Positions 5,213-27,166 of a stretch of DNA of 64,000 nt are shown in pieces. The notes under the pieces are model-generated. The model did not search any database. It was not told the origin of the DNA and saw nothing but the letters and a program-made list of their open reading frames with translations. Every line of letters starts with the position of its first letter. Position 1 is the stretch's first letter. This DNA comes from Candidatus Thorarchaeota archaeon (lineage in GTDB: Archaea; Asgardarchaeota; Thorarchaeia; Thorarchaeales; Thorarchaeaceae): the NCBI GenBank assembly GCA_011364985.1, contig RDOC01000001.1:279124-343123 (forward strand), given 5' to 3'. A program made the translations under genes and the position numbers.

Positions 5213-8200
5213 ATGGGAGATTGGTATGAAGCAATTGGCTATCAGCAGAGAAGAAGTGAGAAACTAGCAAGACATCTATTGAATGCAATTATGGCAGCAA
5301 TATTCCCGTTTCTGATAGTTATCCTTCTTCCTTATGCAATCCCCTTCAGATTCGGATTTGCCGTCATTGTTTCAGTCATTGCAGGACTGACTGCAATCAT
5401 CATCACAGACACTGAAACCATTATTGTCTATTCTAATACGATAAAGAGAAGTCAACTAATGTTTGTTATGCTCTATACAGGGCTAATCCTCATTACTGCA
5501 TTGTCATTGGGAACCCCTTTCGAACCGGTTGTTCTGGCATCCAGAGATCTGACTCGCTATTTGCCCAGTTTCCTAGTAACGGTATTGCTTACATCGTTCA
5601 TGCCAGGATATGCAATTGTTGTATCTGTTATGGAAGATGCAACAGACACCACAGAGAGATTGGTGTATTCAATTCTAAGTAGCTTCTTGGTTACAGGATG
5701 CATCGGATTCATCTCGTGGAATTTGAGTGCTATGGCACTCTCCAAGCCGATTCTTGTCGCAACGAATCTTCTAATTCTGGCAGTATACGTGATCTACAAC
5801 ATAATCAGTGAAAGGCCCGATTCGATTTCATCGGAGCGTTCCAAGACTAAAATGAGCATAATGAATGCAATTGTGCTTGTTGTGCTATCTCTATTCTTGT
5901 ATTTGACATATTTCACTGTGCACAATATATTCGAATCATCACTCCCAATTGTAGGGGATGAGTTCGATCATGTTGCGTATATTGCAAAGCTTCTTTCTAA
6001 TTCAGTCACATGGCAAGAAGATAAGCTGGGGATACTCACAACACCGTCATACCCGTACCTTTTCCATCTGTTCATGGCCGTCTGTGTGACTATATCTGGA
6101 ATCGCTGTTGCAGATTATCTCCTGCTCAGTGCCTTGATACTACTACCCTTACCAATGTTGGCATTCTATGTCATGAGTAAGACAGTAACTGGAAATTCCA
6201 AGCAGTCCATTGTTGCTACTGTACTCTTCCAAGTTACTTCCGACTTCGGTTGGCTCATTGCCATTTCTTCATACTCAGGCACCAATGACCTTCAGACAAT
6301 CCTAAGTGTATCAAATGATACCTGTAGCATTATCTTTTCTCTGTGGCTGCCGATTATTGTTGCACCCTATCTGATAGATCTAGCCGCGTTCTTGTTGATT
6401 ATGGGACTGATGTTCAACAAGAATGCAGACTCAGGGAAACTAGTGACAATCTCGACTATTCTTCTTATTATTAGCATACTTAGCCATATGGAGAAAGCAT
6501 TAATCATAGCGGGACTCACTGGTATCCTTTCACTGATTGGAGTCATAACAAGTAAACGGGGCATTAGGACAAAAGAGATAGGAGCTGCCCTAGTTCTCGC
6601 CTCGATAGTTGTTATTGTCATCGATCTAGTGGCCCTCAGAAGGCTGTTCACAGCATATTACATAGCCACCTTGGTTGTTTGTATTGTTGCAGGGGAGTTG
6701 GCCTATCTCGTAAGCGACAGGCATTTCAATTCCAAATCCATTCAAAATTGGCTGACTTACAATTATAAACCAACAGCAATCGTTGCGACTTTGCTTTTTG
6801 TGGGAACTGCATATTTGGAGTTCATCTTTGGTAAGACTCCAGGTGCACATTGCTCCTGGATTCCCCTCTTTCTTATTCCACTTAAGCTAGGTATTGTCGG
6901 AGTACTAGCCGGTATTTGGCTCCTAAAATTGGACTTTCGCAACGCCAGAAAACACGGAGTTCTACTTGTGCTGGTGTCCTGTGTAATTCTGGGGGAGATA
7001 GGTCTATATCACGCGGGCATACCATTTGCATTGATCGTAGGCTCCATTTTGGATGAGTTCAGATACGTCAGAGATGTTGTATGGCCGATTTTTTCATTAG
7101 CTGGGTCTGTGGCACTCTTCGTGCTAGTGGAAAGAATACAGAGGTTCCGCGCTCCATCCTTTATGAGAAAGATAACCAAAGGATTGGTTCCAAGTCTGGT
7201 CATTGGATTGCTCCTTGCCTCAAGTATACCATCCCATCTACTGAAGATTCAGTACAATGCTGCTAATAGCGGGATAAATCAAAACATTGAGCCGGTTGTA
7301 GAATTCATGGATACACTGAATATCACAGATGGAGGCACAGTTTATGCCCCCGCAAATCTGGCAAGAAGTGTCGCTGCAGTCACCGGAGCAATTGTATATT
7401 CTCCATCAACGTCAGTTTATGGTCCATTGCTTTCCGACGGGTCAGACATATACACAACACTGTGGCTTTTAAATTACCTCAACGTGCAATACATGATTCT
7501 CGACAAGCCAAATTCGATAGTGGGAATTGGACCTGTTGCAGAGATGTCACCTATCCTGTATAGCGATAGTGCATATCGGGTCTGCCAAGTACTCACACAG
7601 TCAGGCCCCACATTGACATCAAGTACCGCTCTTGTTGATGACCATGTCGTAGAACGCTTTGGAGAGGAAATTGGATTCGGCATGAAGCCAAGTTGGCAAG
7701 AATCATTTTCGAATGTTTCGAACTGGGTGGCAGCTCCCATGACGTTCACTAATGTCTTAGAGTACTCGTTGACGACAAATGAGGACGGGGAAGCTCAGCT
7801 GATGGCATCTGGAGTGGCAGGAAGCAAAACGGTCATGCTATATCAGATGCTCTTTGATGCTGGACTACAAGTGGAGAAGGGAACGTATATTGGTGTTAGG
7901 TTCAAAACTTCGCCCGGTGCAAAATTACTTGTTCAGATTCTTTACAACGATAGGACAATGAGCAATGCGCGCCTTGGAAGCACACCGTATCTGCAGTCAG
8001 AAGACTGGATATCATTAACCACATATCTTGATAATGTTGGGGCTAACGTAACAGGGCTAAGAATCGGTCTTACCAACATATACAATGAAGATGTATCCGA
8101 GTTGAATGGGAGTATTGACTATCTAGTGATTAATAGAGAGGATTCTAATCGTGCTGATGCGGCCATACTTCTTTCCATGACGAATCTCAATTTCACGACT

Positions 8201-9139
8201 ATATCAAGTTGGGATTCCATCCTTGAAGCTCAGCCTTCAGTAATCATAGCATCAGAGGATTCAACTTACGGGAATCTGACTAGCTTCTTCGCACGCATCA
8301 ATGAAGACTCAAGAGTGATTCTTCTCGGAAATCTAAATGAAAGCAGTAGCATCCAAGACTATATCGACATCACAAACCTCAACTGCTCAACAGTAGCTGA
8401 TTCCCTTGTTGCATCTGATGAAACATGGAATATTCCTTCTATGCGAGTTGATTGCATATCAATATCAGGCGGACTGGTGCTTAGTACATATGCTGGAAAT
8501 CAGAACCTGCCCTTTCATGTAAGATTATTTGTCAACGACACAAGGCAAATAGACTATCTGAATGTGTGGCCTCTTATCGAAGCTATAAGGGGAACAGGTA
8601 ATGAAGACGCTTTGGGAGAAGCACAGCTGGCATTGACCGAATACCTCCAGATTCAGTTGATGCTTCCAAGTTGCTCATATATTGAACGAAAATTCTATTT
8701 GAAGAACTCAGGATTTGTTAGATATGCTGGTACTCTTGAAATAGAAACAACAGGATTGATTCTGCCGCATATCTTACAGAATGAATCCTTAGGAAGCTTA
8801 ACTAACGCCAGCATTTTGGTGGTTGAAGGGGAAGCGAGATTTGAGCCCGCACAATTTGGCTACTTGATCATCTCTATATCCGGCAGAATTCAGGTTTATG
8901 GCAATGCTGGTATTCTGAATGATCTTGAGGTGGAAGAGTGGAGTGCAATTGCTAGGATTGTAAGAATTTCAGCCAATGCCTCAGTTCATTTCAGCTCCTT
9001 CACATCATCTTTCCCATATGCTTTCGAGATATATTCATCTGAATATGTATTAGAAGGCCTCAGTAATCTGTCGTATTTGCCTATGTCTCAAGGCGTCCTG
9101 CTCATCTATGCAAACGACCCGACAGTATTTGGTTGGTAG
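5213..9139 (+). CDS. Giant GT-C-like membrane protein with large extracytoplasmic domain
   Basis: A 1308-residue protein. Roughly residues 25-680 contain many hydrophobic segments, and the last ~630 residues are hydrophilic, rich in sequons and beta-prone, so probably outside the cell. A GDEFDH acidic motif sits near residue 249 in an early loop; acidic residues at this point are typical of ArnT/PMT-like GT-C enzymes, which transfer sugars from polyprenyl phosphates. The ATG is well placed after an AGGTG ribosome-binding site. The C-terminal half may bind glycan or protein acceptors. It belongs with the five other giant membrane proteins of this locus. Enzyme class is an inference from topology and the acidic motif. 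Confidence 0.72.
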   Translation: MGDWYEAIGYQQRRSEKLARHLLNAIMAAIFPFLIVILLPYAIPFRFGFAVIVSVIAGLTAIIITDTETIIVYSNTIKRSQLMFVMLYTGLILITALSLGTPFEPVVLASRDLTRYLPSFLVTVLLTSFMPGYAIVVSVMEDATDTTERLVYSILSSFLVTGCIGFISWNLSAMALSKPILVATNLLILAVYVIYNIISERPDSISSERSKTKMSIMNAIVLVVLSLFLYLTYFTVHNIFESSLPIVGDEFDHVAYIAKLLSNSVTWQEDKLGILTTPSYPYLFHLFMAVCVTISGIAVADYLLLSALILLPLPMLAFYVMSKTVTGNSKQSIVATVLFQVTSDFGWLIAISSYSGTNDLQTILSVSNDTCSIIFSLWLPIIVAPYLIDLAAFLLIMGLMFNKNADSGKLVTISTILLIISILSHMEKALIIAGLTGILSLIGVITSKRGIRTKEIGAALVLASIVVIVIDLVALRRLFTAYYIATLVVCIVAGELAYLVSDRHFNSKSIQNWLTYNYKPTAIVATLLFVGTAYLEFIFGKTPGAHCSWIPLFLIPLKLGIVGVLAGIWLLKLDFRNARKHGVLLVLVSCVILGEIGLYHAGIPFALIVGSILDEFRYVRDVVWPIFSLAGSVALFVLVERIQRFRAPSFMRKITKGLVPSLVIGLLLASSIPSHLLKIQYNAANSGINQNIEPVVEFMDTLNITDGGTVYAPANLARSVAAVTGAIVYSPSTSVYGPLLSDGSDIYTTLWLLNYLNVQYMILDKPNSIVGIGPVAEMSPILYSDSAYRVCQVLTQSGPTLTSSTALVDDHVVERFGEEIGFGMKPSWQESFSNVSNWVAAPMTFTNVLEYSLTTNEDGEAQLMASGVAGSKTVMLYQMLFDAGLQVEKGTYIGVRFKTSPGAKLLVQILYNDRTMSNARLGSTPYLQSEDWISLTTYLDNVGANVTGLRIGLTNIYNEDVSELNGSIDYLVINREDSNRADAAILLSMTNLNFTTISSWDSILEAQPSVIIASEDSTYGNLTSFFARINEDSRVILLGNLNESSSIQDYIDITNLNCSTVADSLVASDETWNIPSMRVDCISISGGLVLSTYAGNQNLPFHVRLFVNDTRQIDYLNVWPLIEAIRGTGNEDALGEAQLALTEYLQIQLMLPSCSYIERKFYLKNSGFVRYAGTLEIETTGLILPHILQNESLGSLTNASILVVEGEARFEPAQFGYLIISISGRIQVYGNAGILNDLEVEEWSAIARIVRISANASVHFSSFTSSFPYAFEIYSSEYVLEGLSNLSYLPMSQGVLLIYANDPTVFGW

Positions 9140-9424: not shown

Positions 9425-10570
9425 GTGATTGACTTGAGCATAAGTATCTGCTTCGTATCAGGACTGCTGCCGCCAATCTCTGTTGGAGGTGTGGAAAGGT
9501 ACGTCCTAAATCTTGTAGAGGAACTCCCGAATACAAAGTACAAATCGCTTATCATTAGTCATCATTATCGTGGATTAGGAAAGCTTGAAAGAAAACACAA
9601 TTGCCGTATCTATCGAGTTGGCTGGAACCCATTGCCATATAGTCAGGTTCGCATAATCGGTTCTATCTCCAGAGAGCTTAGCAACTTAACGTCCCTTCTT
9701 GACAATGTAAAGAATCATTGGTCATTCGATATTGTTCATTCTCAATTTGGTGAGTTCAGTGATGTTGTGTATGGGACAAAGATTTGCAGAGAAAACGAGG
9801 CAAAGCATGTGGTTACCATTCATGGGAGATTCGGTACGCAATTCGAAGATATAAGAATGAATTCCAGAAGACTAGATGTTCTCAGAAAAGCGGATTACCT
9901 AATTACGAATAGGCAGCAAACATTTCAGTACTTGTTGAAAATGGGCTTTGAGAAACTTGCTCTCCTTCGCAATCCTATACCTGTTTCGAAATACAAACGC
10001 CCAGATCAAGAAACACCCCCAAGAGAAAGGAAGAACATCGAACTCCTTTTCTTGGGTCGCCTAAGTCTACGAAAAGGACCATTTTTGGCAATTCAAGGAT
10101 TTGCCTATGCCGCGAAGAAAGACCCCAATCTGAATCTCTGCATGGTTGGTGGTGGTGTGCTTGAAAAGCAACTAAGAGCATTTGCTGAGAAGATGGACTT
10201 GAAAGATAGGGTCCATTTTACGGGACCTCGGCTTGATATCAGACCATTTCTTTGGAAATCGGATGTGTTCCTTGCGACATCTCCGACAGCGAACTCACCG
10301 AGCCTTTCACTTCGAGAAGCTATGGCCGCAGGTATACCTGTTATCGCGACTGATGTAGAAGAAACCGGTACTGTTGTAAGAGATGGGAAAACAGGGCTGC
10401 TAGTAAAACCCAATCCAAGGGCTCTAGGAGAGGCTATTCTTAAACTGACTGGAGATGAAAACATGATGAAACGATATCGAATGGCTGCGGCCAAACAAGC
10501 TGAAATCGAGTTTGATCTCAACGGGTACGTTAGCGCTTTGGACAGAATCTATGATGCAATTATGGAGTAG
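9425..10570 (+). CDS. GT-B glycosyltransferase, family 4 type
   Basis: A 381-residue protein with the two-Rossmann GT-B layout. The N-terminal half begins with a strand followed by a glycine-rich acceptor loop (SVGGVERYV), and the C-terminal half has LFLGRLSLRKGP and the REAMAAGIPVIATD nucleotide-sugar-binding segment with the conserved Glu. It should transfer a sugar from an NDP- or GDP-donor to a lipid-linked glycan on the cytoplasmic face. A GTG start at 9425 is given; TTG at 9434, preceded by GTGAT, is an equally good start. Its stop overlaps the murA start (TAGTG), so the two are co-transcribed. Confidence 0.9.
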   Translation: MIDLSISICFVSGLLPPISVGGVERYVLNLVEELPNTKYKSLIISHHYRGLGKLERKHNCRIYRVGWNPLPYSQVRIIGSISRELSNLTSLLDNVKNHWSFDIVHSQFGEFSDVVYGTKICRENEAKHVVTIHGRFGTQFEDIRMNSRRLDVLRKADYLITNRQQTFQYLLKMGFEKLALLRNPIPVSKYKRPDQETPPRERKNIELLFLGRLSLRKGPFLAIQGFAYAAKKDPNLNLCMVGGGVLEKQLRAFAEKMDLKDRVHFTGPRLDIRPFLWKSDVFLATSPTANSPSLSLREAMAAGIPVIATDVEETGTVVRDGKTGLLVKPNPRALGEAILKLTGDENMMKRYRMAAAKQAEIEFDLNGYVSALDRIYDAIME

Positions 10571-11865
10571 TGAAGTTCCTTATGGTGAAATCTCTGAGAA
10601 TTAGGGGTAAAGAGCCGCTTGATGGAAACGTAATGATTAGCGGCAGTAAGAATGCTGCAATTCCTTGCATTGCAGCAGGAATCCTCACCGATGAACCCAT
10701 AATACTTCATAACGTTCCTGCAATTGAAGACATACATACTCTATGTGAAATTCTTGCAGCCATGAGTGTGAAGGTGTCATATGATGATGAGAGGACTACT
10801 CTGAGGATGCAGTGTATCAACCCTTCTTCCGATATACCTCCTTTGCTTTCCACGAAAATGAGAGGTGCCACTCTTCTTATGGGAACTCTCCTGGCCCGTT
10901 GTGGAGAGGTGATTTTCGAATCCTATGGGGGATGCCCCATTGGGGAAAGACCAATTGACTACCACCTTGATGCATTTAGGAAACTTGGAGCCAAGATAGA
11001 TACGAAAGGAAACCAAATCAGAGTATCTGCGAAGAAACTCAAGGGAACACTCATTGAACTCCCATTTCCAAGTGTCGGTGCTACCGAAAATTCGATACTT
11101 GCAGCATGTTGCGCCAAAGGCATGACCACAATAGTCAACATGGCAGTTGAGCCAGAAGTCATGAATCTTATTGAGATGCTTGGCAAAATGGGAATGCAGT
11201 ACACCTTTGATGTGGCCAAATCACGAATTGATATCGAAGGAAAGACAAATCTTCAAGGCATAAGGCATTCGATAATTCCAGATAGACTTGAGGCGGGAAC
11301 GTATTCTGTTGCAGCGGCAATCACCAAAAGTAGCATAACGATTCATCCTGTTGTAGAAGCTCACATCAGTCAAGTCATTCAGGCGCTAAGGGATGCACGA
11401 GGGACTATTGAACTGGAATCCGGAATGACCATGAGAGCAGATTTCTCCGACATATGCTTAAGTCCATTCAAAATCGAAACCGGACCCTTTCCAGCCTTCC
11501 CTACTGACCTGCAACCACAGTTTACATCGCTAAGCACTCAAGCAGAAGGCAGGACTTCAATCATTGAAACGGTCTTTGAAAATCGATTTGGGCATGTTCC
11601 CGAGTTGCAGAAGATGGGAGCCAAGATCCAGATCTCTCAAAGAGAATTAACAATAGATGGACCTGTGAGTCTCAAAGGTGCACATGTAACGGCAACAGAT
11701 ATCCGGGGAGGAATGGCGCTGATTCTTGCCGCGCTTTGCGCAGAGGGTTCAACTACTGTCAATGGATTTGAAATCATTGAAAGGGGTTACGACTCTCTAG
11801 AGAGCAAATTGAGCAATCTAGGAGCGAATATTGAGGTGATAGAGGACGAGGAACAACATAAGTGA
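10570..11865 (+). CDS. murA: UDP-N-acetylglucosamine 1-carboxyvinyltransferase (MurA) homologue
   Basis: A 431-residue EPSP-synthase-fold enzyme (E. coli MurA has 419 residues). Known MurA joins phosphoenolpyruvate to UDP-GlcNAc, the first committed step of muramic acid synthesis. All key positions can be read: K27 in SGSKNAA, the PEP-binding Cys C122 in GGCPIGERPID, D313 in FPTDLQ, FENRF with HVPEL after it, and R379 in TDIRGG. These match MurA rather than AroA, which lacks the Cys loop. The start is GTG at 10570, overlapping the preceding stop; ATG at 10582 is an alternative. Its 3' end overlaps the FrhB-like gene. A complete MurA is unexpected in an archaeal glycan locus and suggests transfer from bacteria. 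No MurB or Mur ligase is present here. Confidence 0.93.
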   Translation: MKFLMVKSLRIRGKEPLDGNVMISGSKNAAIPCIAAGILTDEPIILHNVPAIEDIHTLCEILAAMSVKVSYDDERTTLRMQCINPSSDIPPLLSTKMRGATLLMGTLLARCGEVIFESYGGCPIGERPIDYHLDAFRKLGAKIDTKGNQIRVSAKKLKGTLIELPFPSVGATENSILAACCAKGMTTIVNMAVEPEVMNLIEMLGKMGMQYTFDVAKSRIDIEGKTNLQGIRHSIIPDRLEAGTYSVAAAITKSSITIHPVVEAHISQVIQALRDARGTIELESGMTMRADFSDICLSPFKIETGPFPAFPTDLQPQFTSLSTQAEGRTSIIETVFENRFGHVPELQKMGAKIQISQRELTIDGPVSLKGAHVTATDIRGGMALILAALCAEGSTTVNGFEIIERGYDSLESKLSNLGANIEVIEDEEQHK

Positions 11866-13141
11866 AGTAGTCCGAGATAATCAATGCGTGGGGTGTGGCG
11901 CCTGCGAATTGGCGTGCCCTCATCAGGCCATAGCAATGGCAGTTGAACATAATCGAGGTGTTTACAACGCGATCGTGGATGAAACAAAATGCGTTTATTG
12001 CGGAGCTTGCATCGACGTTTGCTTTGGTGCAGCAATAGAACATCACGAACCAAAGGAATCTTTGCAGCGTCTTATTCAAAAAGGAAGAGGAATGGAAGTA
12101 GCCCGCTATGGATATGCCACAGATTCAAATCTCAGGTTTCGGGCATCATCGGGAGGGGCAGTTACAGCTCTGCTGACTCACCTGCTCGATGAGGGGCATA
12201 TTGACGCTGCAATTGTCGTGAAACTTGCGAGCACTGATCCAGCTCTTGGAGTTTCATTGATTGCCGAGTCCAAAGAAGCCATTCAAGAAGCAATGGGGTC
12301 GAAGTATTGTCCTGTGAGGATCAGCACTGCCCTAAAGCAGATGAAAACGGGAGCCAAGTATGCATTTGTTGGACTGCCTTGTCAGATATACGCAACTAGG
12401 AAACTTCAGGAGAAGGGAAGACTAAATGGCGAAATCAGTATCTATATTGGATTGTTTTGTGGAGGCACGCTTAGCTATCATGGAACGAGGTATATTCTCA
12501 GACAGAATGATGTTGAATTCAGTAATATACAGGCAATCGGATACAGGGGATTCGGATGGCCTGGACGATTCTATGCAGAAACGAAAGATGATGTTATTTC
12601 TCTCCCATTTGTTACGTATTGGCCAAATATAGCTAGATGGTTCTATCTTGATCGTTGCCTGACATGTCTTAGTGGACTGAACCTAAATGCGGATGTCAGT
12701 TTTGGGGACTTTTTCTCAAGGGAACATATTTCAACTGATCCTCTTGGCACATCTGTTATGTTAGTCATGTCTGGAATTGGAGCTGAAGCTCTATCATCAA
12801 CTGAGAACGCAGGTCATTTGCATCTCAAATACACAAGCATCAAGAAGGTCATTGAATCACAATCATCCATGTTTCTCAAGCATAGGAGATACCCAACAAG
12901 ACTTCTGATATTGAAATTGCTCAGAATGGGAAGACCCTCAAAGGGCCGGTATGAATCAAAACTAGGTTTCAGAATTAGAGACGCTTTGGATGAGCTTCTT
13001 CTTCATTCAGGTCGAGCCCTCGCCTCTAGACCGGGACTATGGCCCTTTTTTGATGTCTTTAAGAGTCTCATGACTGTGTATAGTCGGATTGTGATGATTA
13101 TTGGCAAGATTATTGTGCGAAATTCAAGTCTGAATCTCTAG
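11858..13141 (+). CDS. FrhB-family iron-sulfur flavoprotein oxidoreductase, ATA start
   Basis: A protein of about 427 residues with two N-terminal ferredoxin motifs (C-x2-C-x2-C-x3-CP starting at residue 10, then a second at about residue 43). The F420-hydrogenase/dehydrogenase beta-subunit core follows: ASSGGAVTALL, GLPCQIYA, YRGFGWPG, and RC-x2-C with a later SFGDFF. FrhB proteins bind FAD and pass electrons between F420 or ferredoxin and a partner. The first cluster Cys (codon 11885) lies before the only standard start (GTG 11888). Upstream, the frame offers just ATA at 11858 before a stop at 11840; ATA overlaps the murA stop and follows GAGGACGAGG. A sequencing error or frameshift is possible. 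Close coupling to murA suggests reduction of an enolpyruvyl sugar. Confidence 0.82.
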   Translation: MSEVVRDNQCVGCGACELACPHQAIAMAVEHNRGVYNAIVDETKCVYCGACIDVCFGAAIEHHEPKESLQRLIQKGRGMEVARYGYATDSNLRFRASSGGAVTALLTHLLDEGHIDAAIVVKLASTDPALGVSLIAESKEAIQEAMGSKYCPVRISTALKQMKTGAKYAFVGLPCQIYATRKLQEKGRLNGEISIYIGLFCGGTLSYHGTRYILRQNDVEFSNIQAIGYRGFGWPGRFYAETKDDVISLPFVTYWPNIARWFYLDRCLTCLSGLNLNADVSFGDFFSREHISTDPLGTSVMLVMSGIGAEALSSTENAGHLHLKYTSIKKVIESQSSMFLKHRRYPTRLLILKLLRMGRPSKGRYESKLGFRIRDALDELLLHSGRALASRPGLWPFFDVFKSLMTVYSRIVMIIGKIIVRNSSLNL

Positions 13142-13194: not shown

Positions 13195-14733
13195 TTGCAT
13201 GTAGAAAATACCGCCGAGGTGCAAGGTAGCTTGGATTTGTCCAACGTAATCAAGAGTGCTGTTTTCATATATATAGGAGGATTGGTCACGAATATTCTGG
13301 GTTTCGTATTCTGGCTAGTTGCATCTAGTTACGTACCCCCAGATGTTGTTGGATCGGCTTCGGCCATCATAGCCCTTCAGGCACTTCTCATGACCATAAT
13401 GACCATAGGTCTTCCTACAGGATTGCGTCGCTTCGTTGGAAAAGGCGGCAGTGAAGAAAGATATGATTTGATTTCTGAATACTTCGCAACAAGTATGGGC
13501 GTTAACCTCCTTCTCAATCTGCCTGTTTCACTGATTCTGATAGCTGCACCCGCTCTTCACTATAGTGGTTATGGATTATCTGCAATAGAACTTGCATTTG
13601 TGGGGACTCTTATTCTACTTAGTTTTTGGGCACCAACTCTAGTTTCATTGTTCGATTCATTGTTGAAAACTGAAATCACTGCCCTAGCCCAAGTACTCTC
13701 TTCGATTGTAAAACTTCTTCTCGGGCTAATGATGCTGATTCTCGGTTATGGATTCTTGGGAGTCATGATGGCATTCATAGCGGCATCAATTACAACTGAT
13801 TCAGTATTGCTATACCACGCGCGGAACATGTTCAGAGAATTTGGATATCAACCTAGGTTTGAATCAGACCGTATAAGAGAACTAGTGGAATCTGGACTGC
13901 CTGCATGGATTCCGAATATGTTGACGATAGCAGGACAATCCGTTGCCGTTCTTGTAATCTATGGATTAGTTGGAGAGAGCCAAACGGGCCTCTATTACTT
14001 AGCTTTCGCCATGGCACAAGTTGTATACACGATACCAACAAGCATTCAGAGTCTAATGTACCCAGTTTTGAGTGGTATGAAAAGCGGACGAGAGGATGCC
14101 ATTCGCCGCACTACACGTGTTTCTCTTATAGCCACAGCGCCCATTGCATTAGCTGTCGCATTGTATTCTGAAATTCCATTCTCCGTAATAGGACCAGCAT
14201 ACTCAGATGCAGGTCCTCTTCTGGCAATACTCGTAGTCGGAGCGATGTTCTGGTCAATTTATGTTGGATATTATGGATATCTATATGCAATAAAGGAATA
14301 CAGGCATGTGACTGGATTGGGACTTGTTCTTAATGGAACAAGGCTGGCTTTGTATTTCCTTCTTGCTTCGTTGTTTGGTGCCATGGGAGTCGCCTTTTCC
14401 TTCATCGGGGGAATTCTCGTTGCAATGATCGGCCTTGCGTTTTCCTCAATTAGCATTGGTTACAAACCAGATTGGAAGAAGTACTTCCTAGCAATTATTA
14501 TCCCGAGTACTTCCGTCATACTTGTCTGGCATCTCAGTGTAGAATGGATACTGGGAATTCCATTCATTCTTATTTGGTCATTCATCTTGTATGGAAGACT
14601 GAAGATTATGACGAGGACAGACATCTTTGAGGTGTTCTGCGGTTTGTTCACTCCTGAGAAAGCCTTGAGTATAGCATTGCGTCTTAGGCCAGTATCAAGA
14701 ATAGTGTTTGGAAAACAGAACGTAGATGAATGA
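13195..14733 (+). CDS. Wzx-type polysaccharide flippase (MOP superfamily)
   Basis: A 512-residue protein with about 12-14 hydrophobic segments and the N-terminal layout of O-antigen/polysaccharide exporters. Members flip polyprenyl-linked glycans across the cytoplasmic membrane. The TTG start at 13195 follows an AGGAAAG ribosome-binding site; an ATG 27 bases upstream in the same frame runs straight into a stop. Its place next to murA and the FrhB-like gene suggests that it exports the glycan carrying their product. A second flippase is at 35318-36952. Confidence 0.85.
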   Translation: MHVENTAEVQGSLDLSNVIKSAVFIYIGGLVTNILGFVFWLVASSYVPPDVVGSASAIIALQALLMTIMTIGLPTGLRRFVGKGGSEERYDLISEYFATSMGVNLLLNLPVSLILIAAPALHYSGYGLSAIELAFVGTLILLSFWAPTLVSLFDSLLKTEITALAQVLSSIVKLLLGLMMLILGYGFLGVMMAFIAASITTDSVLLYHARNMFREFGYQPRFESDRIRELVESGLPAWIPNMLTIAGQSVAVLVIYGLVGESQTGLYYLAFAMAQVVYTIPTSIQSLMYPVLSGMKSGREDAIRRTTRVSLIATAPIALAVALYSEIPFSVIGPAYSDAGPLLAILVVGAMFWSIYVGYYGYLYAIKEYRHVTGLGLVLNGTRLALYFLLASLFGAMGVAFSFIGGILVAMIGLAFSSISIGYKPDWKKYFLAIIIPSTSVILVWHLSVEWILGIPFILIWSFILYGRLKIMTRTDIFEVFCGLFTPEKALSIALRLRPVSRIVFGKQNVDE

Positions 14734-14790: not shown

Positions 14791-15921
14791 CTAGGGATTC
14801 AGGATAACAGATGAAATCACCGATTTCCATTTCCTAGCTGTGGTAGCGAAATCGAAATCTTGGCGTACGAACTTCATCGCATGCTCGCTGACAAGTTCCA
14901 GTAATTCCGGATCCTTCAGAAGTGAGCATATTTGGTTGGCCAACCCTCTTGGAGCCGTAGATGTTATTATGAAGCCAGTATGTGCGTCAGCAATGAAATC
15001 ACTTATACTCCCCACCCGAGAAGCAAGAATAGGAGTGCCACAGGCCATAGCCTCAAGAAGGACATTAGGCAATCCTTCAGTTTTGGACGGCACAACTAGA
15101 AGTTTCAATGAGTTGAGAATTGGGGCAATTTGGATATGTGGCACTCTACCTGTGAACGTCACAAATGAATCAATTCCATGATCTAGTACTCGCTGCTTAG
15201 CTTCATCAAACAATGGGCCATCTCCAACGACAATGACTCTAATGGGTTTTCCAGAATCCAGAATCAATGAAATAGCATCAATCAAAGGGATTACGCCTTT
15301 TTCTGAACTCAGGCGTCCGATGAATCCAATCTGGTCAAGCCGTTCAACAATACGACTTGTCCTGAAAAACACGCTGAAATCAACGAAATGCTCATGAGCT
15401 ATGAGAACCTTTTTGCTGTGTCTGTTGAAAGGAGATTCTTTCATCATCTGCTTCGAGTAAAGAATGATCTTCATGCTCAGTCCAAGTACAATGTTCATGA
15501 CTGCCGCAATGATTCGGGTAAACCGATCATTCTTGGATTGAGCTACTTGAACTGCATTGCCCCCAGGCATAAACGCAATTGTATTGCCACTGAGTTTCAA
15601 TGCAATCATTGGCAATAGCAGAGTTTCACCTCCAATTGTAAACAAAAACATGTCAACATGCTTGGCCAACCTCAATGCTCTAATTGTGACTCTCATTTGC
15701 ATTGCCAAGTTGTTTATGATTCTTAGAAGCACATTTGATACGTTTCTGTGTCTAATTGCTGTTGCGTGAAGATTCGGAAACTGACCTAAATTTCCTATAT
15801 CAAGTCCAGGAATTAGTACATGTACTGTGTTTGCAATACTAGAGAGAAGTCTAATGATGTTTGCAATTGGAGTAAGTCCAGGACTTAGTCCGACAACACA
15901 TATCCGGGGTCTCCCTTTCAT
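14791..15921 (-). CDS. GT-B glycosyltransferase, family 4 type
   Basis: A 376-residue glycosyltransferase. The N-terminal Rossmann half carries a glycine/proline acceptor loop, a hydrophobic patch lies near the domain junction, and the C-terminal half contains FIGRLSSEKGV and TEGLPNVLLEAMACGTP, the donor-binding segment with the E-x7-E pattern. It should add a sugar to a lipid-linked glycan. The ATG at 15921 follows AGAGGTAG on the coding strand. It ends 57 bases from the convergent flippase gene. Confidence 0.9.
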   Translation of the reverse strand: MKGRPRICVVGLSPGLTPIANIIRLLSSIANTVHVLIPGLDIGNLGQFPNLHATAIRHRNVSNVLLRIINNLAMQMRVTIRALRLAKHVDMFLFTIGGETLLLPMIALKLSGNTIAFMPGGNAVQVAQSKNDRFTRIIAAVMNIVLGLSMKIILYSKQMMKESPFNRHSKKVLIAHEHFVDFSVFFRTSRIVERLDQIGFIGRLSSEKGVIPLIDAISLILDSGKPIRVIVVGDGPLFDEAKQRVLDHGIDSFVTFTGRVPHIQIAPILNSLKLLVVPSKTEGLPNVLLEAMACGTPILASRVGSISDFIADAHTGFIITSTAPRGLANQICSLLKDPELLELVSEHAMKFVRQDFDFATTARKWKSVISSVILNP

Positions 15922-16423: not shown

Positions 16424-17851
16424 TCAAGATAACTTAGAGATTATGAACTTCAGCTTCCCTCCCTGACTGGGAATGTCTTCGGTTGCTTCCATTAGAACAG
16501 GAACTTGTTGCTGCGTTTTCTCCAGCAGGATGTTTCTGACTTTTCCTATTGCGCCACGATAGTCTCTATAAGATTTATTGGGAACAAAACGAAGAACGAT
16601 CGAGTAGTCTGCATTTTGAATGAATTGAAACATTTTTACAGCTTCCGGACAAGCATCGAAGATGGTGGTGAGGAAATCGCCACTCAATACGGTACCATTT
16701 GGAAGTCGTATCATATCTGACTCACGCCCTCTAACATGGTCCATAAGTGGAAAAGGAAGACCACATGGACACTGCCCTTCAATTAACCGACCGCGGTCCT
16801 CGTTCAGATATCGGATTATCGGGAATGCATAGTTCTCTAAATCTGTTACAACAATATCTCCGAACTCTCCCTCTGCACATATCTCCCCATTCTTCACGAA
16901 TTCGATATGGCGTATATCAGATTCTATGTGAAGACCAGTATGTTGGTTGCATTCAGCGGCAAGCCAGTAGACTTCTCCGCAACCGTATTGATCATAGACC
17001 GGAGCATTGAAGACTTTTTCAACAAGGTTTCGTTGAACCTCACTTATAGGAGAAGAGGTTAACCATACAGCTTTGGGCGGTGGAAGTTCTATGCAGTGAT
17101 CATCCACGTACTCGGCCAGATGACATATGGCTCCAACGTAACCTTGTAATAGTCGAGGCTTGATGCATTTGTATTTTCTTATGAAACATCGTATGGAACT
17201 CTCTGTCATTGAAGCCGCGTCAAGTAGTACTCTTTTTGTCGGCCACCAGAATGCACAATACGCTAGGTCTTGAAATCTGGATTGGCGAACATCCCTGAAA
17301 ACAAAAGCACCGTCATCCCAGGGTGCCAAATCCCATCTTGCCAAGAGCCTCCATCCAATTGCATGCAAAGGAACTCTTCTGTCGTGATATACTCTGAGTG
17401 GTATGCCGGTAGATCCACCAGTAGTCGACACTTGGAAATATCGCTTGTCCACTTCCATAGCCATGATATCGGCCAAGTTCTCTCGAATATCGTTCTTCGT
17501 GAGGAAAGGTATTTTCAGGAAATCATCAGGCGTTTTTACGTCATCTGGAATTATGCCTGCAGCCTTGAATTTCCTTCTATAGAAAGGGACTGATTTGTAT
17601 GCATAACGGAGCAGTTTCTTTCGCTTTCGCCAGTTCAATTCTGCTAGTTCTCTTGAACTAAGACATTGGTTTCTTATCAGGCGTTCATAGTACGCTGAGG
17701 AGTTGGTGTTCAGAAGAAAGAATTTTGAGTAGAAGTACGAACTCGTGAGTGAACGAAACAATCGATACTTGGCTCCTTTTAGGTCTTGATTCCATTCTAA
17801 TGAGCAATATAAATGATAATAGCACTGCTGCAAACAGAGGCATGTTTTCAA
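16424..17851 (-). CDS. CapK/PaaK-type adenylate-forming enzyme
   Basis: A 475-residue member of the phenylacetate-CoA ligase/CapK branch of the ANL superfamily. It has the AMP-binding loop STTGGSTGIPL, the YGCGEV motif, and an RYLNEDRGRL region before a shorter C-terminal domain. CapK-like proteins occur in capsule and surface-polysaccharide loci and probably activate a carboxylic acid to attach it to a sugar; the substrate is unknown. The first ~50 residues, rich in Cys and Tyr, look unlike the family, so the true start may be internal. It is separated from its neighbours by more than 200 bases on each side. Confidence 0.82.
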   Translation of the reverse strand: MKTCLCLQQCYYHLYCSLEWNQDLKGAKYRLFRSLTSSYFYSKFFLLNTNSSAYYERLIRNQCLSSRELAELNWRKRKKLLRYAYKSVPFYRRKFKAAGIIPDDVKTPDDFLKIPFLTKNDIRENLADIMAMEVDKRYFQVSTTGGSTGIPLRVYHDRRVPLHAIGWRLLARWDLAPWDDGAFVFRDVRQSRFQDLAYCAFWWPTKRVLLDAASMTESSIRCFIRKYKCIKPRLLQGYVGAICHLAEYVDDHCIELPPPKAVWLTSSPISEVQRNLVEKVFNAPVYDQYGCGEVYWLAAECNQHTGLHIESDIRHIEFVKNGEICAEGEFGDIVVTDLENYAFPIIRYLNEDRGRLIEGQCPCGLPFPLMDHVRGRESDMIRLPNGTVLSGDFLTTIFDACPEAVKMFQFIQNADYSIVLRFVPNKSYRDYRGAIGKVRNILLEKTQQQVPVLMEATEDIPSQGGKLKFIISKLS

Positions 17852-18072: not shown

Positions 18073-19260
18073 TCACTTGTGAGATTCTGTTTTCGACAAA
18101 GTTGAGTAGAGATGCTCCAGACGGTCCACAGTCTTTTCGATGGTCAATTCATCGGCAAGATATTTATTAGCTTTATCTCCCATGAGCTTTGAATCTTTAG
18201 GATTTTCAAGTAACCATTCTATTGCTCTAGCGAGTTGAAGAACATCGCCACTTCTGACAAGGAAACCAGTGTCACCGTGGCGAACAAGATCAGGAATACC
18301 TCCCACATCTGTTGCTAGTACTGGTTTTGAACAAGCAAAAGCTTCCAGAATCACATTTGGAAATGTCTCATACCTTGAAGGCAGAATCACAATGTCAGAG
18401 TCAACGTATGCAGATATCTTCTTATTTCCAAAAAGAGGCCCCGTGAAACGCACGTAATTCGCAAGTCCCAGTTTTGTTGAAAGGGATTTCAAATACCCTA
18501 AGTGACCTCCATCTGGACCCACAACAATCAGGTTAACATTCTTTTGTGAGCGCAGGATGCTTTGTAGGGATCGAAGCAGGCGGTCAATTCCTTTGATGCT
18601 GTGTACCCTACCTACAAAGAGGAGTAGGCGTGTGTCATCACTAATATTGTACGCGTATCTGAATGTCCCAGGCTCCGGAGTATCTTTGAATTCAGACAAG
18701 TCAATGCCATTTGGAATAACACTGATCTTCTCATCTGGAATGCCAAGTTTTCGACCGGTTTTCATTTCGAATTGACTAAGTGCAATTAGTGCCGAAGCAT
18801 CATGAAGCAGATTCATACCGAAGAGGGTATCATAGATACTCTTAGCTCTCTGCCAACGCACCATGCGCGGTAACGAACCACGGGGTTGAATGCAATAAGG
18901 AATTCCAGTCTTCCTTAACCAATGATGTGCCACAACATTGTGAAAAGTACGAAATTCATGGAGATGAGCAACATCGAAATCCTTGAACAAGTTCCTTCCA
19001 TCTATTGCTAGTTGAGGAGAAATGAGGAACAATCGAGTGCGATGCAAGCCAATATTCCTGTAATAACGAATCTCCATTTCGTCTGTTATTGTGACAAAAT
19101 CACAATCTAACCTATCCTTCAGATTCTTGGCATCGCTTGTGGCGATCACAACATCATGACCTCTTCTCGCAAGTTCCTTGGAAACCAGATAGGCTGCACG
19201 GGGAGCCCCACCAAAAGCTGTGGCGGGAGGAAAATACGATACTACTTCTAGAATCCGCAT
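18073..19260 (-). CDS. GT-B glycosyltransferase, family 4 type
   Basis: A 395-residue enzyme that starts directly with the first Rossmann strand (MRILEVVSYFPP), followed by a glycine-rich acceptor loop (FGGAPRAAY). The C-terminal half has LFVGRVHSIKGID and YETFPNVILEAFACSKPVLATDVGG, the donor-nucleotide segment. It is predicted to extend a polyprenyl-linked glycan in the cytoplasm. It is transcribed away from the DUF362 gene (19388). Confidence 0.91.
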   Translation of the reverse strand: MRILEVVSYFPPATAFGGAPRAAYLVSKELARRGHDVVIATSDAKNLKDRLDCDFVTITDEMEIRYYRNIGLHRTRLFLISPQLAIDGRNLFKDFDVAHLHEFRTFHNVVAHHWLRKTGIPYCIQPRGSLPRMVRWQRAKSIYDTLFGMNLLHDASALIALSQFEMKTGRKLGIPDEKISVIPNGIDLSEFKDTPEPGTFRYAYNISDDTRLLLFVGRVHSIKGIDRLLRSLQSILRSQKNVNLIVVGPDGGHLGYLKSLSTKLGLANYVRFTGPLFGNKKISAYVDSDIVILPSRYETFPNVILEAFACSKPVLATDVGGIPDLVRHGDTGFLVRSGDVLQLARAIEWLLENPKDSKLMGDKANKYLADELTIEKTVDRLEHLYSTLSKTESHK

Positions 19261-19387
19261 GACTCTTGTTACATCCTGTTTTCAGACAGCTGTGCAATTT
19301 CCTATGAAGAAGTAATTCATCATTTCTGACTGCCCTTTGTATCTTGAGATTCAATGGGGAGTATTGACAGCTGCATGTACTCTGCCT

Positions 19388-20443
19388 ATGTATGAAGATT
19401 TAAAGAGAAGGTTTGACATCGAAAAGGTCAGCAGAATCATGGGTGTGGGCAGGGTAAAGGAATTCAGTGTTTACATAGAGAACTCAAAGCCGCTAAACCA
19501 GAAACTCAACGATGGTTTAGGTCACATACAATGGAGACAAATTATCAGAACTGATGACCACGTATTTCTGAAACCAAACTTCACTTTTCCATCATACCGT
19601 TATGGTGTGACGACATCTCCGTGTCTTCTTGAAGCTCTATTAGGAATTCTGAAGAATCGAGCTTCAGAAATAACAATAATAGAATCAAATGGTGGAAACA
19701 ATGTCTTCACAGCTGACGAAGCCTTCAGAGGACATGGCATTCCAAAGCTGTGCAAAGAATTCGGAATAGACGCTGTAAACCTATCAGACTGTCCTTCTAC
19801 AAAGGCTAAGGATAAGATTGGTTCAAGAACGGTAGAAGTGAGCGTACCCAGATTTCTGCCGAATGAAGTGGATTGTTTTGTATGTGTGCCCGTTCTGAAG
19901 GTACATGCAATGACCTTGGTTTCGCTGGGAATCAAGAACCTGTGGGGGTGTCATCCAAATCCCATGAGATGCCTCTATCACGAGGATATCGACAAGAAAC
20001 TTGCGCTTCTCACCAAGCTCTGGAATCCGCGAATCTGCATTATAGACGGGACCTATGCACTAGACGGACATGGACCAATGTTTGGCCAACCTGTTGAAAT
20101 GAATCTGCTGATTGTTGGGAACAATGTTGTAGCAAGCGATAGCGTCGGAGCGAGTGTGATGGGCTTCGATCCCCATCACATCAAGCACATAAGAGTGGCG
20201 TCGGAGGAGAAACTCGGTCCTATCGATTTAAGGTCGATTAGAGTAAACACAGATTGGAGAAGGTTCTGCAGGGTTTTCTCGTTCAAGAGAACGCCGCTTG
20301 ATTATTTATCTTTGGTACCATTTCACAGCGAACTTCTTGCAAAGATTATTTTCAACTCACCATTCACTTCCGGGATTCGAAGAATGGTAGACATAATCAG
20401 GACTTCTGACGAAAAGGAAGACCTAAGAGGGTACGTAAATTAA
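19388..20443 (+). CDS. DUF362 family protein
   Basis: A protein of about 351 residues. Family features are an N-terminal KPNF with the following SPCLLEAL, an IIESNGG strand, PVLKVHAMT, SLGIKNLWG, IIDGTYALDGHGP, and ASDSVGASVMGFDP. DUF362 proteins are widespread in anaerobes and often carry ferredoxin domains; this one has none. Its biochemical role is unknown. ATG at 19388 is chosen; a TTG at 19337 would add 17 residues that do not look conserved. It sits among glycosyltransferases, so a part in glycan modification is possible but unproven. Confidence 0.8.
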   Translation: MYEDLKRRFDIEKVSRIMGVGRVKEFSVYIENSKPLNQKLNDGLGHIQWRQIIRTDDHVFLKPNFTFPSYRYGVTTSPCLLEALLGILKNRASEITIIESNGGNNVFTADEAFRGHGIPKLCKEFGIDAVNLSDCPSTKAKDKIGSRTVEVSVPRFLPNEVDCFVCVPVLKVHAMTLVSLGIKNLWGCHPNPMRCLYHEDIDKKLALLTKLWNPRICIIDGTYALDGHGPMFGQPVEMNLLIVGNNVVASDSVGASVMGFDPHHIKHIRVASEEKLGPIDLRSIRVNTDWRRFCRVFSFKRTPLDYLSLVPFHSELLAKIIFNSPFTSGIRRMVDIIRTSDEKEDLRGYVN

Positions 20444-20614: not shown

Positions 20615-21835
20615 CTACCGGTATCTTCTCGTAACATTACCCAAGACATTCTTCAGTTCTTCTCCTATTCGCTCAATACTGAGGTTGCGCTCTACAAAAG
20701 ACCTACCGCTCTTGCCCAGAGATGAAACAATGCTTGGATTCTCACTAAGTAATAACACTGATTCTGCAAGAGCAATGTAATCGCCGGGCTTGATTACAAT
20801 GCCAGAGTTTGTTTTGGATACATATATGCCAGGCTGTCCGCTAGAACAGCAAAGAATTGGTTTTCCCATGGCTTGATACTCATAGATCTTGGAGGAGATT
20901 CCTAGCTCAATCGAGCCGTATCCAGACAAGGGTAGGAGTAGAACGTCTGCATCTTTCATTGCTTCGACGACTTCGACTCTCGACACGATCTTCTCAATGA
21001 CCTTCACGTTTGGCAGTCCAAATTCGGATTGCATCCGATTCAGCTGGCTGGCCATCTCACCCCCACCTTGAAGAATGATTTCGATCCCGTCATGCTTGGA
21101 AAGCTCTTGCGCGGCGTCAAAGACTTGGCGAAAATCATAAGCTGGAGAGAAAGCCCCAATATACAGAACCCTGAATCTACTAAGGGGCCGCTTCTGATGG
21201 TCTGTAGATACTTGAAATGATTCCATATTCACGCCTGCCTTGATAACATGAATTGCATTAGATGCTATGCCATACTTGGAAACAACAGCTTTCACATAAC
21301 CGGGACTAATCGGAGTCACTAAGCTGGCAAATCGGTATGCTATCTTTGCCAGAATCTCCCCAGCTCTTCCGATAAGGGATCTCTTGCTTATTCCCAAGTC
21401 GTAGAGAGCTTCGGGCCACAGGTCATCAACATTCATGGCGATAGGACACTTCTTAACCTTTGAAATCATTATTCCTGGAAACATTGCAGTGATATTCGGA
21501 TTTGCAGCCCAAATGACATCGACTTTACCTAAAAAGGGAATAGATAGCATTGATGACAGGATGAATGAAATGAAGAGCACCATACGCTTCGCATACCCCT
21601 CTGATGCCAATGGTGGCACATAAGTCCGGATTAGCCTGAGACCATTGGTGGCTTCAAGAACGAATGCCTTCCTTCGATAGCCCTGCGGAATGTTTCCAGA
21701 AGGATAATGAGGGAAGGCAGATACGACTGTCACATCGCAACCAGCTTTTCGCAGGCCCAATGAAGCATTGAAAGCACGTGTGGCACCTCCGCCCATGTCG
21801 GGAGGAAAGTATTGAGCGATGACTAGCACCCTCAT
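20615..21835 (-). CDS. GT-B glycosyltransferase, WbuB-like family 4
   Basis: A 406-residue enzyme with an N-terminal acceptor domain (QYFPPDMGGGATRA), VLYIGAFSPAYDF at the start of the donor domain, and LGISSKIYEYQAMGKPIL as the donor-binding segment. The last resembles WbuB/fucosaminyltransferase-like members rather than the usual E-x7-E form. It probably adds an amino- or deoxy-sugar. Its ATG overlaps, as ATGA, the stop of a short upstream frame (21832-22086) whose reality is uncertain, and it lies downstream of the glycosyltransferase at 22016-23149. Confidence 0.88.
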   Translation of the reverse strand: MRVLVIAQYFPPDMGGGATRAFNASLGLRKAGCDVTVVSAFPHYPSGNIPQGYRRKAFVLEATNGLRLIRTYVPPLASEGYAKRMVLFISFILSSMLSIPFLGKVDVIWAANPNITAMFPGIMISKVKKCPIAMNVDDLWPEALYDLGISKRSLIGRAGEILAKIAYRFASLVTPISPGYVKAVVSKYGIASNAIHVIKAGVNMESFQVSTDHQKRPLSRFRVLYIGAFSPAYDFRQVFDAAQELSKHDGIEIILQGGGEMASQLNRMQSEFGLPNVKVIEKIVSRVEVVEAMKDADVLLLPLSGYGSIELGISSKIYEYQAMGKPILCCSSGQPGIYVSKTNSGIVIKPGDYIALAESVLLLSENPSIVSSLGKSGRSFVERNLSIERIGEELKNVLGNVTRRYR

Positions 21836-22044
21836 ATTCTGATCACTCCCATTGGACCAATGTAAGGCAAAGATTCGTGATATGGCGCCATTGTTTTTAT
21901 CTTCTTTTTAGGCAAGTTCATGATATCCGAGAAAACTCCTATCATTGCTCTGAGCGAAACGCAATGATAACAGCCTACACTTAAGCTATCCGTATCCACT
22001 GCTAACACGAGCAGGTCATTGTCCAAGAGAGAAATATAAGTCAT
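21832..22044 (-). CDS. Possible small protein, ATGA-coupled to the next gene
   Basis: A short frame lies between two glycosyltransferase genes on the same strand. Its stop overlaps the start of the downstream gene as ATGA, an arrangement common in real operons. A longer version (to 22086) would overlap the upstream gene by 71 bases; ATG at 22044 gives 70 residues and still overlaps by 29. No family is recognised and the composition is not convincing. It may be a decayed gene end or noncoding. Confidence 0.2.
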   Translation of the reverse strand: MTYISLLDNDLLVLAVDTDSLSVGCYHCVSLRAMIGVFSDIMNLPKKKIKTMAPYHESLPYIGPMGVIRI

Positions 22045-23149
22045 TGATGACGGAGGCAATACGTTCAAGACTAAACTCCTTCTCAATCATTTTTCTGGCG
22101 TTTTTGGCAATCTTCTGCGACAATTCTTCATTTTCAAACAGGCTAAAGACGGCGCTTCTGAAACTATCCACTGAGTTCTCAAAAAGGAGTCCATTATGAT
22201 TGTGCTGAACGAATGTAGGAATGTCACCCACCCGTGTGGATATCACTGGAGTTCCTGATGCCATTGCCTCCAGTACCACCGTTGGCATTCCCTCCCAGAA
22301 AGAGGGGAGAACCAACGCATCTGCAGACTTTAGAATTTCAGGAATTTCAGAGTGCTTCCGTTGGCCAAGAAGATCAATCTCAATGGGGTGGCCATTCTTC
22401 TGCAATTCATTTCTAAGCCTAGCAAGCGATGGATAAAGAGATCCTTGGCCAACAAATCTAATTCTAAAACTCTGACCATCCCAATTCCTCTTCTCACGAA
22501 TCCACTGAATGAGAGACCCAACACCCTTCCATCTCTCTAGGTCACCAACATAAAGTAGGGTCTTCTTAGATGCTGCATCCCGTAATGAGAACGAGAATTG
22601 GTCTGTATCAACAACATTCGGAACATAGCAGAGCTTGCAGGTAGGAACATTGTACACAGAAGAGATGGTTTCTAGATCTGTCTTGGACACAGATGCAATC
22701 AGGTCACTCTTGTCAATGGTGAATTGGCCCAAGGAGTGGTCATAGATTTGTTTGACCCATCGTCTTCTTAGAGAGGTTCGATAGGGAGGGTTTCCGACCC
22801 CACCATGTAGTTGAAGCAAAGCCTTTCCTCTCTTCAGGAGTCTTGCCAGTACTGCTTGATTGGATGTGAAATACAGGTATGAATGAATATGAAACACGTC
22901 TGCATCTGACTTACAAAGCTGGCTTAGCATTAAGTTCAGGGGATTGATATTCCAAATAACTGCTGGAGAATAGAACCTGTGATATGTGACACCATTCTTC
23001 TTCGAAACACCGACGCGGCTCAGGTGTCTCGTAGTCGTATACACATGAACGTCGTGCTCCTTCGACTGCATCGTTGATATATTATGGACATATCTCTCAG
23101 ACCCACCCAAGTGTTCTCCGACAAAGGGACAGATATGTGCAAGCCTCAA
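22016..23149 (-). CDS. GT-B glycosyltransferase, family 4 type
   Basis: A 377-residue enzyme starting at the first Rossmann strand (MRLAHICPF) with a GGSERYV acceptor loop. The C-terminal half has LLYVGDLERWKGV and FWEGMPTVVLEAMASGTPVISTRVGD with the conserved E-x7-E. It is predicted to transfer a sugar from a nucleotide donor to a lipid-linked glycan on the cytoplasmic side. It is the first gene of a minus-strand pair with the WbuB-like gene at 20615-21835. Confidence 0.91.
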   Translation of the reverse strand: MRLAHICPFVGEHLGGSERYVHNISTMQSKEHDVHVYTTTRHLSRVGVSKKNGVTYHRFYSPAVIWNINPLNLMLSQLCKSDADVFHIHSYLYFTSNQAVLARLLKRGKALLQLHGGVGNPPYRTSLRRRWVKQIYDHSLGQFTIDKSDLIASVSKTDLETISSVYNVPTCKLCYVPNVVDTDQFSFSLRDAASKKTLLYVGDLERWKGVGSLIQWIREKRNWDGQSFRIRFVGQGSLYPSLARLRNELQKNGHPIEIDLLGQRKHSEIPEILKSADALVLPSFWEGMPTVVLEAMASGTPVISTRVGDIPTFVQHNHNGLLFENSVDSFRSAVFSLFENEELSQKIAKNARKMIEKEFSLERIASVINDLYFSLGQ

Positions 23150-26197: not shown

Positions 26198-27166
26198 ATG
26201 GACAACTTGAAGGAGCTTAATGGCGCAAGAACCCTTGTGACCGGGGGTGCTGGGTTTATCGGATCACATATTGTGGATGGCCTGATTGAACAGGATGCAG
26301 AAGTCATTGTCTTGGACGACATGAGTAATGGAGATCTGAAGAATATAGCAAGGTGGGAAGACAATAAGCGACTCAAACTCATCAAGGGCGACATTCGAAA
26401 TCAGGAGACTGTGAGGAATGCGATTCGAGATGTTGAGTATCTTTTTCATCAAGCCGCAAGGGTGAGTGTGCCCTACTCGGTGAGGAACCCTCACCTTGTG
26501 CTAGAGGTCAATGTCATGGGAACAACAGTACTCCTAGAAGAGAGCCGCAAAGCTGACGTGGAGAAGATAGTGGTGGCCTCGTCCTCATCGGTATATGGAG
26601 ATACTCCTACATTGCCAAAAGTGGAAACCATGTGTACAAACCCCATCTCTCCGTACGGCGTTTCCAAACTCGCACAAGAGCAACTTGGAAAAGCATTTCA
26701 TGAAACATACAACATGAATATTACATCTTTGAGATACTTCAATGTCTATGGCCCAAGGCAAAGAGGAGGGAGCTATGCAGGAGTCATTTCTATATTCTTC
26801 AAAAAGGCATTTGAGAATCAGGCCCTCCCCATTTTTGGGGATGGAACGAGTACTAGAGACTTCACCTATGTGGAAGACGTGGTTCAGGCCAATCTCCTTG
26901 CGGCTGCCAAGCCCGTCTCGAAAGGCAGAATATACAATGTCGCAAGAGGCGAACAAACCTCTATCGATGGATTGACCGATGAGATAATCAGGTTGAGCTC
27001 TTCAAAGTCCAAGAAGGAATACCTTGCATCTAGACCAGGAGACATTCATGACAGTCTTGCAGACTTAACACTAATTTGCAGAGAGTTGGGATACGACCCG
27101 AAATATGGCATATCCGAGGGACTAAGAAAGACCTTCAACTGGATTAGCAATGAATTACAGCTCTAG
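26198..27166 (+). CDS. UDP-glucose 4-epimerase-like SDR
   Basis: A 322-residue extended SDR with GGAGFIG near residues 18-24, the catalytic YGVSK, ASSSSVYGD, RYFNVYGPRQ and a later FGDGTSTRDFTYVEDV. This motif set is typical of archaeal UDP-glucose/UDP-N-acetylglucosamine 4-epimerases, which interconvert gluco and galacto nucleotide sugars with tightly bound NAD. The ATG follows an AGGAG ribosome-binding site at 26192. It probably supplies a galacto-configured donor to the surrounding glycosyltransferases. Confidence 0.9.
   Translation: MDNLKELNGARTLVTGGAGFIGSHIVDGLIEQDAEVIVLDDMSNGDLKNIARWEDNKRLKLIKGDIRNQETVRNAIRDVEYLFHQAARVSVPYSVRNPHLVLEVNVMGTTVLLEESRKADVEKIVVASSSSVYGDTPTLPKVETMCTNPISPYGVSKLAQEQLGKAFHETYNMNITSLRYFNVYGPRQRGGSYAGVISIFFKKAFENQALPIFGDGTSTRDFTYVEDVVQANLLAAAKPVSKGRIYNVARGEQTSIDGLTDEIIRLSSSKSKKEYLASRPGDIHDSLADLTLICRELGYDPKYGISEGLRKTFNWISNELQL

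Follow-up and report, generated by a model that had tools for sequence, protein, structure and literature searches.

A 64,000-nucleotide stretch of contig RDOC01000001.1 from a Candidatus Thorarchaeota archaeon (hereafter, the window) carries a gene for MurA, the UDP-N-acetylglucosamine (UDP-GlcNAc) enolpyruvyl transferase, beside a gene for an FrhB-like iron-sulfur (Fe-S) flavoprotein, both within a surface-polysaccharide cluster. We think that the two proteins probably form a lactyl sugar for a surface glycan, with substrates, reduction, electron donor, and final glycan all being predicted ones. The main support comes from the linkage of this FrhB subfamily to PF04230, the polysaccharide pyruvyl transferases, which depend on phosphoenolpyruvate (PEP); from a related genome, G222, in which PF04230 holds the slot of MurA; from the chemistry of BciB, another FrhB-family protein; and from Klebsiella capsules. 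Lactyl (1-carboxyethyl) ether sugars are found in many capsules and O-antigens.

A murA gene adjoins a gene for an FrhB-like flavoprotein

The window belongs to a 471 kb contig (G000:C11) of a 1.70 Mb assembly that is 74.4% complete and 1.6% contaminated. The pair comprises the following features:

10570–11865, plus strand: MurA (UDP-GlcNAc enolpyruvyl transferase), 431 amino acids (TIGR01072, PDB matches, active-site motifs)
11833–11839, plus strand: GAGGTGA within murA, a possible ribosome-binding site for the frhB-like gene (sequence, by eye)
11843–13141, plus strand: FrhB-like Fe-S flavoprotein of the polysaccharide-cluster subfamily (PF04422, PF04432, Fer4, alignment, tree); start non-canonical, between 11843 and 11885

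MurA scores 462 bits with TIGR01072 (cut-off 392.7) over residues 7–422, which places it, at full length, within that family; the aroA model gives 79 bits against a cut-off of 287. All active-site motifs are kept, namely the fosfomycin-target Cys (GGCPIGERPID), Lys (SGSKNAA), Asp (FPTDLQ), and Arg (ATDIRGG). The protein matches 58 PDB chains, the best being a bacterial MurA (E 3e-96), and is the sole EPSP-synthase-family match in the genome. Its predicted activity is enolpyruvyl transfer to UDP-GlcNAc. Because MurA is present in this genome alone among 228 sampled from the phylum, and because the closest relatives retrieved are MurAs of Clostridia and Bacilli (≤45% identity), it was most likely gained from a bacterium. 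None of these closest bacterial MurA genes (L003–L014) adjoins an FrhB gene. At two of the MurA loci, L007 and L014, Asp replaces the Cys targeted by fosfomycin (GGDDLGARPID); this form is naturally resistant.

The second protein had been predicted to be an Fe-S flavoprotein of the F420-hydrogenase beta family able to supply low-potential electrons. Indeed, it has two 4Fe-4S motifs, matches FrhB_FdhB_N (PF04422) and FrhB_FdhB_C (PF04432) above cut-off, and keeps 12 of the 12 cysteines that are invariant in its subfamily by alignment. A low-potential reductase with predicted flavin adenine dinucleotide (FAD) binding is thus plausible. A role as hydrogenase or F420-dehydrogenase subunit was rejected, the score with the frhB equivalog model TIGR03289 (50.2 bits) being far below its cut-off of 331.5.

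The original prediction also had the two genes overlapping. This is true of the reading frames, since the frhB-like frame is open from 11843, but not of the first canonical start, GTG at 11888, which lies 22 bp past the end of murA. The codon of Cys15, a residue invariant in 13 aligned homologs, directly precedes this GTG. Since initiation at GTG 11888 would drop Cys15, the true start, judged from the sequence, must be a non-canonical codon farther upstream, unless the assembly consensus is wrong at this point. No ATG, GTG, or TTG occurs in the frame upstream of Cys15 (window positions 11840–11888), where ACG, ATA, and the like stand instead. One such ACG, at 11846 inside the end of murA, has GAGGTGA 6 nt upstream. 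A non-canonical start may be coupled to murA; the alternative is a consensus error.

The FrhB subfamily is linked to PF04230

FrhB relatives (E < 1e-20) were found in 16 of the 228 phylum genomes. Besides this one, 12 genomes hold an FrhB of the polysaccharide type, and all of these are partnered by PF04230, either fused (5) or adjacent (7); the remaining matches in the phylum do not adjoin PF04230. Fusions occur in both orders. We also ran FrhB profile searches on bacterial samples of 349, 347, and 392 genomes, on one set of 12, and on plasmids, scanning the flanks with local profiles; sampling covered the archaeon's own phylum, bacteria, and plasmids. Pfam confirmed PF04230 in 10 of 10 sampled partners.

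In a tree of 79 FrhB sequences, one supported clade of 30 has no PF04230-linked member; we call it metabolic, a label taken from the neighboring genes. The other 49 comprise 27 PF04230-adjacent, 9 fused, 6 within 7 kb, 6 unlinked, and the window protein, which stands beside MurA. Hence, outside the metabolic clade and with the window protein set aside, 42 of 48 are PF04230-linked. In a further bacterial sample, from Bacilli, linkage was found for 10 of 10 (7 adjacent or fused, 3 within 2.5 kb). The window FrhB clusters with proteins from G183 and G222, genomes of its own family, that are linked to PF04230 (support 95/93); it belongs to the linked subfamily by the tree and has MurA in place of the usual partner. 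As to whether the arrangement recurs, the MurA-FrhB pair is seen here alone, and it is the module that recurs, with PF04230 as the partner.

PF04230-FrhB pairs are also found on plasmids of Klebsiella aerogenes (L114, in the order wzx-FrhB-PF04230-glycosyltransferase-glycosyltransferase), Parabacteroides (L115), and Sinorhizobium meliloti (pSymB, L116). On the 13 kb K. aerogenes plasmid p35_D, positions 341–6268 of L114 encode a flippase, an FrhB-like protein, PF04230, and two glycosyltransferases, a fragment of a cluster for capsule or O-antigen. The overlapping pair on pSymB (L116, 5893–8368) is isolated, with no evident polysaccharide cluster around it, and numerous plasmids of S. meliloti and S. 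medicae give FrhB matches of this kind. DNA searches of E. coli genomes with the Klebsiella FrhB-PF04230 pair gave no match, and a search of phages for FrhB gave one weak match. The best-scoring FrhB matches of Bacillota (L082–L086, L089–L094, L096–L098; about 400 amino acids) form the separate, metabolic clade, which outscores many polysaccharide members on the polysaccharide profile; judged by eye, the neighboring genes resemble those for MmgE/PrpD, succinate dehydrogenase/fumarate reductase, TRAP, or UbiD. In four bacterial FrhB-like genes (L048, L071, L177, L178), an in-frame TGA or TAA indicates broken genes, frameshifts, or recoding.

MurA occupies the PF04230 slot of a syntenic cluster

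A glycosyltransferase before the pair and a flippase after it, as originally predicted, were confirmed by Pfam. The genes around the pair are as follows:

9425–10570, plus strand: GT4 glycosyltransferase (PF00534/PF13439); its stop overlaps the murA start by one base
13195–14733, plus strand: Wzx-type flippase (PF01943), 38% identical to the flippase behind FrhB in G222
14791–15921, minus strand: glycosyltransferase, syntenic with G222 (46%)
18073–19260, minus strand: glycosyltransferase, syntenic with G222 (42%)
19337–20443, plus strand: DUF362 protein, syntenic with G222 (59%)
20615–21835, minus strand: glycosyltransferase, syntenic with G222 (54%)
22016–23149, minus strand: cluster protein of 377 amino acids, syntenic with G222 (55%)
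26198–27166, plus strand: nucleotide-sugar epimerase/dehydratase, syntenic with G222 (59%)

The G222 cluster runs in the order PF04230, FrhB, flippase, DUF362, three glycosyltransferases, epimerase, and another cluster protein, and its proteins are 31–59% identical to their counterparts in the window. Since this orthologous cluster holds PF04230 exactly at the position of MurA, we conclude that PF04230 has been swapped for MurA, an unrelated PEP-dependent transferase, beside the same reductase. PF04230 itself had no match in the 74%-complete genome (G000), and a sensitive local scan of the window revealed no remnant of it. Upstream of the module, both the window and G222 have a large membrane protein, with no detectable similarity between the two.

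A PaaK-like adenylate-forming protein lies within the cluster (16424–17851, minus strand) and has no counterpart in the G222 cluster; it gave no Pfam match and partial NCBIfam matches to models related to CoA-ligase and F390-synthetase. Two further proteins, a 1308-residue membrane protein (5213–9139, plus strand) and an 851-residue protein (23417–25972, plus strand), are likewise without a Pfam match.

Lactyl ethers and pyruvyltransferase genes coincide in Klebsiella

Among Klebsiella capsules, O-lactyl groups ("Olac") are listed for K22, K37, and K66 only (PMC6856556, Table 1), and the K22 capsule, according to a reference title in PMC3857182, contains 4-O-[(S)-1-carboxyethyl]-glucuronic acid. 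In the survey PMC4616057, 46 capsule types lack pyruvate, and pyruvyltransferase genes are nonetheless present in four of them: K8, K22, K37, and K66. PMC6856556 gives pyruvate for the K8 capsule. All three lactyl types are thus among the four (chance P = 2.6e-4), so that in Klebsiella pyruvyltransferase genes correlate with lactyl ethers. The lactyl substituent of K66 is presumably an ether as well. Across 78 Klebsiella loci, PMC4616057 records a single gene for a coenzyme F420 hydrogenase and two for nitroreductases, and this survey alone, in the literature we searched, links an F420 hydrogenase to a pyruvyl transferase. That literature assigned the synthesis of lactyl-ether sugars to no route other than MurA-MurB, and left the FrhB-like genes of polysaccharide clusters without explanation.

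A proposed route to a lactyl sugar and its alternatives

In the route that we propose, MurA would move enolpyruvate from PEP onto O-3 of UDP-GlcNAc or a related sugar, and the FrhB-like flavoprotein, with electrons from ferredoxin or reduced F420, would reduce the resulting enolpyruvyl ether, yielding a lactyl (1-carboxyethyl) ether. The product would be a muramic-acid-like acidic sugar, which the glycosyltransferases would put into a surface glycan for export by the flippase. The ancestral module would be the widespread pair of PF04230 and FrhB-like proteins, making lactyl ethers on capsular and exopolysaccharides, and in this lineage a MurA derived from a bacterium would have ousted PF04230. 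Since unrelated PEP users are swapped beside the same reductase, and since fusions exist in both orders, the comparison suggests that the reductase acts on a pyruvyl-derived group delivered from PEP. Reduction of an enolpyruvyl C=C bond is chemically reasonable, as the FrhB family contains the vinyl reductase BciB, a ferredoxin-dependent FAD/Fe-S protein (PMC4836224).

Several points weigh against this route. We found no second MurA-FrhB pair among the approximately 1,300 genomes searched for FrhB and the 103 plasmids with matches. The two transferases differ in acceptor, a nucleotide sugar for MurA and, as a rule, lipid-linked or polymeric sugars for PF04230 enzymes, so that the reductase would have to accept a new carrier. 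For some PF04230-FrhB pairs, the product may be a pyruvate ketal. That the Klebsiella F420 hydrogenase gene belongs to K66, and the nitroreductase genes to the near-identical K22 and K37, is a tempting guess. As to the predicted lactyl ether product, the Klebsiella correlation is indirect evidence.

The best-surviving alternative, which we nevertheless regard as unlikely, is that the PEP transferase (MurA or PF04230) makes the acidic group alone and that the FrhB-like protein catalyzes a different redox reaction of that glycan, such as one at a sugar ring or at another substituent. In its favor, 6 of 48 FrhB proteins of the polysaccharide group lack PF04230 in the flanks that were retrieved, and PF04230 enzymes by themselves form pyruvate ketals in many bacteria (PMC6801904). 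The fusions in both orders and the exchange of PF04230 for MurA, however, point to the PEP-delivered group as the substrate, and the Klebsiella lactyl correlation also argues against a separate step.

Less likely still, MurA could be a recent insertion with no functional link to FrhB, whose own partner was lost or lies in the missing quarter of the genome. Such an event would agree with the rarity of MurA in the phylum (1 of 228 genomes) and with the incompleteness of the assembly. Yet MurA sits exactly in the PF04230 slot, its reading frame overlaps those of both neighbors, and it is full length with its active-site residues kept.

That the pair makes UDP-N-acetylmuramic acid (UDP-MurNAc) for a true peptidoglycan-like wall is highly improbable even though MurA is bona fide by score. 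MurB (MurB_C, PF02873) had no match in this 74%-complete genome, while the same search was positive in 10 of 14 controls, and the Mur ligase middle domain (PF08245) had no match there either. The absence of MurB, part of the original prediction, is thus supported; its proposal that the pair replaces MurA-MurB does not hold for peptidoglycan, because the Mur ligases are absent as well and the surroundings are those of a surface-polysaccharide cluster, and we rejected a peptidoglycan role.

An assembly chimera or bacterial contamination, suggested by the absence of MurA from the rest of the phylum, has an equally slight probability: the contig is genuine, since positions 44–64 kb of the window match three genomes of the same genus at 66–71% DNA identity and since FrhB, the flippase, three glycosyltransferases, DUF362, and the epimerase are syntenic with G222, and its length of 471 kb also speaks against a chimera. 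The partial genome encodes nine Ras-family GTPases (best E 7e-52), which, together with the rarity of MurA and genome sizes of 2–4.7 Mb across the phylum, fits an Asgard host.

Relation to known systems

The pair shares with MurA-MurB, which synthesizes UDP-MurNAc, a MurA member and a predicted order of reactions in which enolpyruvyl transfer precedes flavin-dependent reduction to a lactyl ether. It differs in its reductase, an Fe-S protein of FrhB type unrelated to MurB, and in a surface-polysaccharide context with neither MurB nor Mur ligases. With the PF04230 and FrhB-like pairs or fusions it has in common the FrhB subfamily, the slot, and the neighboring flippase, glycosyltransferases, and DUF362, whereas its PEP transferase is MurA, of the EPSP-synthase family (PF00275). 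BciB, a ferredoxin-dependent 8-vinyl reductase, resembles the FrhB-like protein by family and description, being an FAD/Fe-S enzyme for the reduction of a C=C bond, but its substrate is a tetrapyrrole. FrhB, FpoF, and the N-terminal part of F420-dependent sulfite reductase share the FrhB_N and FrhB_C domains (profile matches 8riu_B, 7npa_A, and 3zfs_C); unlike them, the window protein falls far under the frhB equivalog cut-off, and its cluster has no hydrogenase partner. NikO, which transfers enolpyruvate to uridine monophosphate, is a MurA-like enzyme outside peptidoglycan synthesis (4fqd is matched by the window MurA) with a different acceptor and pathway; we know of no FrhB partner of NikO.

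As a natural experiment, the exchange of one PEP transferase for an unrelated one next to the same reductase hints at the substrate of the reductase, and it makes both the synthesis of lactyl ethers and the function of FrhB-like proteins in polysaccharide clusters testable. We give even chances to the wider proposition that the FrhB-like proteins of polysaccharide clusters are widespread enolpyruvyl-sugar reductases unrelated to MurB, which together with PF04230, or here with a MurA recruited by an archaeon that lacks peptidoglycan, produce the lactyl ethers found on surface glycans of bacteria and archaea. If this is true, MurA works in an Asgard archaeon that has no peptidoglycan pathway.

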